Below, piece after piece: positions 33,432 through 34,680 of a DNA stretch of 64,000 bases. The notes under the pieces are model-generated. The model was given only the letters and a program-made list of their open reading frames with translations, made no database searches and had not been told where the DNA came from. The DNA is from Thermoproteus sp. CP80 (lineage in GTDB: Archaea > Thermoproteota > Thermoprotei > Thermoproteales > Thermoproteaceae), in contig NZ_LCWM02000001.1 in NCBI RefSeq assembly GCF_002077075.2, forward strand, positions 6,724 to 70,723, in the 5' to 3' direction. Positions within the stretch are counted from its first letter, which is position 1. Each line of letters begins with the position of its first letter. Position numbers and translations under genes: made by a program.

Positions 33432-33559
33432 GCCCCGGTCGTATAGTCCGGTCAGCCAGCCGGCCCGGAATAGTATGCGGGCCTGAGCGTCCCTACGCGG
33501 CTAGTCGAGCCCGTGACCCGGGTTCAGGGGAAACCCGCCTAAGAATCCCGGCCGGGGCG
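33432..33559 (+). tRNA. tRNA-Asp (GTC) with three introns
   Basis: Acceptor strands GCCCCGG (33432-33438) and CCGGGGC (33552-33558) pair fully, with G73 at 33559. Removing three short inserts gives a 74-nt cloverleaf: about 18 nt in the D-arm after A21 (33455-33472), 19 nt in the anticodon loop (about 33486-33504, anticodon GTC split) and 17 nt in the T-loop after C56 (about 33526-33542). Anticodon stem CGGGC/GCCCG, loop CTGTCGA, variable TGAC, T-stem CCGGG/CCCGG. The 1-3 nt placement of each junction is uncertain. A tttaaaa box lies about 26 nt upstream. G73 and the short variable loop support Asp over Leu. Confidence 0.88.
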
Positions 33560-34490: not shown

Positions 34491-34628
34491 TGCCCCGGCC
34501 GGGATTTGAACCCGGGTCTTGGGCTCTCTCCGACGCGCGAGGGCGCGTCCCGAGAGGCCCATATCCTTGACCGGACTAGACGACCGGTTGGAGTGGCCGG
34601 CGTGCCACGGCTCCCCGACGTCCGGGGC
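34491..34628 (-). tRNA. tRNA-Glu (CTC) with two introns
   Basis: On the minus strand GCCCCGG (34628-34622) pairs with CCGGGGC (34498-34492) and A73 is at 34491. A 25-nt intron (34550-34526) sits at the canonical 37/38 site, with an internal GACGCG/CGCGTC hairpin; the mature loop is CTCTCGA, giving anticodon CTC. A second, 38-nt insert (34621-34584) separates the 5' acceptor strand from T8 (site 7/8, or 5/6 to 6/7 because GG repeats at both ends). Without both, a 75-nt cloverleaf forms. A gtttaaaa box about 25-28 nt upstream of GCCCCGG on this strand supports the 5' end. Confidence 0.88.
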
Positions 34629-34680
34629 GTCCCCTACACTCTTCGCAATTTTTAAACTTTTTGTCGGCGTCGCGCTAAGC

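Follow-up and report, generated by a model that had tools for sequence, protein, structure and literature searches.

Introduction

Non-canonical archaeal tRNA introns of the bulge-helix-bulge (BHB) type are excised by the splicing endonuclease and the flanking exons are joined by the RtcB ligase. The motif is built from a 4-bp central helix between 3-nt bulges, and the cuts fall inside the bulges. Introns that separate base 3 of a tRNA from base 4 (3/4) are described for certain Thermoproteales in a review that cites Sugahara et al. 2008 (PMC4090602). The split and tri-split tRNA genes of Nanoarchaeum, Caldivirga and Staphylothermus rely on the same principle of an endonuclease acting on a BHB, with the reported split sites at 37/38, 25/26, 29/30 and 30/31, none of them in the acceptor stem. 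A further related case is the permuted SRP RNA of Thermoproteus tenax, which has a TATA box 26 nt upstream of its start and a BHB built partly from the 5′ leader, and whose motif is cut by the recombinant T. tenax splicing endonuclease (PMC4731332).

Here we analyzed a tRNA-Glu(CUC) gene in a 64,000-nt stretch of the Thermoproteus sp. CP80 genome (the window), in which a sequence-only reading had placed a 38-nt intron just after the 5′ acceptor strand. The locus is a new instance of the known 3/4-intron class: its intron lies between bases 3 and 4 of a Thermoproteales tRNA, as the class is defined in PMC4090602, and it shares with the published introns the lineage, the position and the acceptor-stem location, with a BHB around it. 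Calling such a site rare was fair, although it had already been reported as 3/4 in the Thermoproteales (PMC4090602), and the intron itself is one more case of a class that is extreme but known. The resemblance to split points that had been proposed is not borne out by the reported split sites; split tRNA genes are separate transcription units, whereas the exons of this tRNA-Glu are contiguous over 138 nt with a single TATA box, in one gene and one transcript. The permuted SRP RNA is like tRNA-Glu in that its BHB is formed partly by the 5′ leader, but its leader pairs with the trailer and a circular RNA results, whereas in tRNA-Glu an intron inside the tRNA is removed (PMC4731332). The second intron of the gene matches the canonical archaeal 37/38 introns and is ordinary (25 nt, canonical BHB). 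The locus differs from the published account of 3/4 introns in carrying a copy of the acceptor strand in its leader, which is not mentioned in the papers examined.

Results

The acceptor-stem intron is placed at position 3/4 by comparison

The gene and its parts are arranged as follows (window coordinates).

34628 to 34491, minus strand: tRNA-Glu(CUC) gene, anticodon CTC
34649 to 34656, minus strand: TATA-like box TTTAAAAA, 28 nt upstream of the leader copy and 45 nt upstream of the mature 5′ end
34622 to 34628, minus strand: leader heptamer GCCCCGG, which repeats the 5′ acceptor strand where transcription is predicted to start (proposed decoy acceptor strand)
34612 to 34621, minus strand: variable leader spacer ACGTCGGGGA, whose terminal GGA with G1 makes up the 5′ strand of the BHB central helix
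34609 to 34611, minus strand: exon 1, G1-C2-C3 of tRNA-Glu, invariant in 30/30 genes of the comparison and completing GCC+CCGG
34588 to 34608, minus strand: predicted 21-nt intron at 3/4, GTGGCACGCCGGCCACTCCAA, placed by its BHB and covariation
34551 to 34587, minus strand: exon 2, C4 to G37, starting CCGGTCGTC and ending CTCTCG, with the anticodon CTC at 34554-34552
34526 to 34550, minus strand: 25-nt canonical intron at 37/38, GGACGCGCCCTCGCGCGTCGGAGAG, with a BHB read from the sequence
34491 to 34525, minus strand: exon 3, A38 to the discriminator A73, AGCCC...CCGGGGCA

The mature 5′ end is G34611, within the second GCC, and the first GCCCCGG belongs to a 5′ leader of 17 nt that includes the acceptor-strand copy. 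With both introns out, a standard 75-nt tRNA-Glu(CUC) with a 7-bp acceptor is obtained, and ARAGORN finds the full cloverleaf in this spliced sequence. The raw gene gave no ARAGORN prediction, nor did it give a match when the window was run through cmscan at gathering cut-offs; in a whole-genome run, the match of the Rfam tRNA model begins at window 34587, at model position 4, which is the base after the 3/4 intron. The sequence-only reading had recognized the tRNA-Glu(CTC) and its classic 25-nt intron correctly, as this intron follows G37 (34550-34526) and has a good BHB (central helix CUCU/GGAG, intron stem GACGCG/CGCGUC). It was also right about a TATA box ahead of GCCCCGG that puts the parts in one transcript, and it did not give the strand (minus).

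To place the first intron, we compared 30 distinct Glu and Asp genes of the same arrangement, including the one in the window. They come from relatives of the same family, named Pyrobaculum genomes among them, and from one Thermoprotei genome outside it (L064 in G048, family f7). In the window's gene the splice signals read ...GGAG-CC^GTGGCACGCCGGCCACTCCAA^CCGGTC, giving a BHB with the 5′ bulge CC^G, the central helix GGAG/CUCC, the 3′ bulge AA^C and the intron stem UGGC/GCCA. A BHB with cuts GCC^N and NN^CCGG forms in 30/30 genes, its 4-bp central helix being paired 4/4 in each of the 30. Over 25 distinct sequences, 97.5% of cells are paired, compared with 26-58% once the partners are slid, and 27 cells are doubly changed, against 9.3 ± 3.0 in shuffles. 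Covariation is found in the central helix, where one pair is A-U, G-C or G-U, and in the intron stem, where U-A alternates with C-G and G-C with A-U. GCC on the 5′ side of the intron and CCGGT on the 3′ side are invariant, which makes GCCCCGG the mature strand in all of these genes. The window's genome has a gene for the splicing endonuclease. Both the splice motif and its position at 3/4 are shown here by comparison between genes, and the acceptor-stem intron predicted from it is 21 nt long and not the 38 nt at 7/8.

Both placements lead to an identical mature tRNA in the window's gene, so that a single sequence misleads, and annotation that takes the first GCCCCGG as the 5′ end will arrive at the correct mature tRNA with the wrong intron. 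If the first GCCCCGG were exon 1, the 38 nt between G7 and T8 would have to leave as one 7/8 intron or be removed in two steps; the TATA spacing suits a leaderless tRNA beginning at that point, and such an arrangement would directly explain why the heptamer is conserved. We consider it very improbable, however, because hand inspection found no BHB for a cut at 7/8, whereas a complete, covarying one exists at 3/4, and with CCGG/CCGG as the central helix the cuts would fall 2 nt beyond this site and U8 would be lost. What follows the heptamer is also near random and of variable length, and exon status for the heptamer would produce a C-C mismatch at 7-66 in two tRNA-Asp (GCCCCGC; L031 and L038) and U-G pairs in several Glu tRNAs. 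The mature strand does not equal the first heptamer in every homologue, as the upstream copy varies in some genes while GCC+CCGG is perfect in all, and the first GCCCCGG is accordingly read as leader and not exon.

A second, rare intron in the acceptor region was thus rightly suspected, and a position 1-2 nt inside the acceptor strand had even been allowed for, but the site is 3/4 and the length 21 nt. The 38-nt stretch that separates the first GCCCCGG (34628-34622) from T8 (34583) is present as described; its reading as one intron is not supported, and it comprises the leader spacer, GCC, the predicted 21-nt intron at 3/4 and CCGG. The comparison with related tRNA genes that had been recommended found the same arrangement in 33 genes, so it is not a product of chance, with the intron again at 3/4 instead of 7/8. 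Separately, a first cut after the GCC of the first heptamer was ruled out, because this heptamer is at the predicted transcription start and nothing upstream is left for a central helix.

A copy of the acceptor strand is conserved at the start of the leader

A leader copy of the 5′ acceptor strand is found in 33/33 intact 3/4-intron genes, Glu and Asp, from three families. Three of the 33 were added by a covariance search (model R1) of 81 genomes of the class, namely an Asp gene from G012 and two Glu genes, from G051 and G054 (family f4). Bases agree with GCCCCGG at 224/231 heptamer positions of the 33 genes, and the mean pairwise identity is 0.94 in the heptamer, 0.30 in the 10 nt that precede it and 0.33 in the 7 nt that follow. 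The conserved block is exactly 7 nt, the length of the acceptor strand, and a 6/7 match at a suitable place would be expected in ~1% of genes. Variants in the 30-gene dataset are GCCCTGG (four genes), GCTCCGG (one) and GCCCCGC (two). The spacers of the f7 (G048) and f4 (G051, G054) genes are unrelated, with the leader copy kept.

In nearly all 3/4-intron genes the copy lies 25-30 nt from the TATA box and the mature 5′ end 42-62 nt from it. tRNA genes that start with GCCCCGGT and have an uninterrupted acceptor show a TATA distance of 26-36 nt (median 28, 36 genes with a measurable TATA), and the remaining tRNA genes of G005 and G012 have a similar distance with two clear exceptions. Since the uninterrupted homologues begin at the same place, the comparison locates the copy at the original 5′ end, and from an evolutionary viewpoint the 38 nt may be regarded as an insertion.

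Using model R1 on the 81 genomes, no isotype other than Glu and Asp was found with a 3/4 intron above noise, and tRNA-match starts in G005 and G012 gave no additional case. Glu and Asp have the GCCCCGG acceptor in common, so all 3/4-intron genes found represent one acceptor sequence. The leader copy is not mentioned in the literature on 3/4 introns that we examined, and its presence in every 3/4-intron gene seems to be unreported; the original work of Sugahara et al. 2008 was outside this scope and may describe more.

The leader copy is predicted to pair with the 3′ acceptor strand

In silico, the leader heptamer pairs with the 3′ acceptor strand, with C66-C72 as its partner, at a mean probability of 0.93 (37 °C) and 0.94 (85 °C), in an energy model that is crude for these GC-rich RNAs, as the T stem is rare in the precursors and the mature tRNA is not folded as a cloverleaf. 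When the heptamer is shuffled, the predicted pairing drops to 0.08. Most natural substitutions in the heptamer leave it able to pair, by way of G-U. Shuffling the heptamer has little effect on the predicted formation of the central helix, which goes from 0.13 to 0.07 at 37 °C and from 0.14 to 0.13 at 85 °C. After splicing, the model still prefers the leader copy over the true strand (0.81 versus 0.16), so an exchange of strands would have to be assisted, by RNase P for instance. A two-state switch, with the heptamer moving into a hairpin of its own after splicing, was also considered and found no support, since in the model pairing with the 3′ strand remains the preferred state of the spliced leader.

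These observations suggest the following sequence of events. A single transcript would begin at or near the first GCCCCGG (34628). In the unspliced RNA, the intron would keep GCC apart from CCGG and prevent a full acceptor stem with C66-C72; the leader copy would pair with C66-C72 in its place and close the precursor like a leaderless tRNA, from which the splice motif would project as an extra arm. The splicing endonuclease would then recognize the two BHBs and excise 21 nt at 3/4 and 25 nt at 37/38, and the ligase would join GCC to CCGGUCG. As the 5′ half of the acceptor BHB (-3 to -1 plus G1) is mostly in the leader, the leader must stay attached for cutting at 3/4, and splicing would come first and trimming of the 5′ end by RNase P second. 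Once spliced, the true strand would displace the copy, and the leader would be removed, presumably by RNase P. We infer in this way the role of the copy, its pairing in the cell, the order of the steps, the strand exchange and the part of RNase P.

Splicing at 3/4, closure by the leader copy and later trimming are together the best explanation overall, to which we give a probability of roughly 60%. The more general proposal is that 3/4-intron tRNA genes depend on a decoy strand that closes the precursor, keeps the leader needed for the splice motif and is swapped out after splicing, an intramolecular swap that would be conserved across several Thermoproteota families; this proposal is tentative, and we place it just short of even odds. 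The leader copy suggests how a tRNA may cope with an intron only three bases into the molecule, where the acceptor stem and the splice motif would both depend on the leader to form, and it would imply a fixed order, splicing and then trimming, along with an exchange of strands. The genome of the window has a sub-threshold match to the archaeal RNase P RNA model (L192, G000:C16:57158-57296, minus strand, 13 bits, E 0.1), perhaps a reduced form of this RNA.

The heptamer could also be conserved for reasons unrelated to the 3′ acceptor strand, in an otherwise ordinary leader ahead of the 3/4 intron: through a hairpin with a run of GGGG, through a requirement at the start of transcription, or through recopying by intron movement or gene conversion. 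We regard this as plausible but not probable. In many genes the CCCC(G) of the heptamer is able to pair with a GGGG run before G1, but such a CCCC/GGGG hairpin has no need of heptamer positions 1, 6 and 7, which are conserved in 30/30, 30/30 and 28/30 genes. The heptamer is moreover predicted to pair within the leader at only 0.01, and the spacers of L050 and L063 are able to form hairpins of their own. With those positions unexplained and the folding unfavorable, a CCCCG/CGGGG leader hairpin is not favored as the main cause. A requirement at the transcription start agrees poorly with the other tRNA genes (G005, G012), which begin with many different sequences at the same TATA distance. Recopying does have a precedent in L024 (G005), where Glu and Asp genes ~250 bp apart, both of the 3/4-intron type, share the identical spacer ACGTCGGGGA, pointing to a gene conversion or a duplication across isotypes; identical copies beside near-random spacers in three families argue, however, against simple recency. 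The decoy-strand reading, with closure by the copy before splicing and trimming after it, is the one that we prefer.

Related and neighboring loci

Several other loci were noted. L152, an Asp gene in G011, has a 26-nt leader that starts with GCCGCGG (a 6/7 copy) and is without a 3/4 intron; the intron may have been lost precisely here and the leader retained. This gene speaks, if ambiguously, against the decoy-strand reading. L193 (G010:C1:1202100-1202500) is the 5′ fragment of a 3/4-intron tRNA-Glu, with the leader GCCCTGG, the 3/4 intron and the first part of exon 2 followed by no recognizable 3′ part, and is a pseudogene or recombination remnant.

In the window itself, the other strand encodes a tRNA-Asp(GTC) gene (33432-33559, plus strand) at a distance of ~0.9 kb from tRNA-Glu. 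It was missed by ARAGORN and by cmscan of the window at gathering cut-offs; its acceptor is uninterrupted, and it apparently has three other introns, in the D-arm region, at 37/38 and in the T-loop. Finally, the tRNA genes L241 and L277, with TATA boxes 47 and ~66 nt upstream, have long, GC-rich predicted leaders with neither an acceptor intron nor an acceptor-strand copy, and L277 resembles an initiator tRNA.
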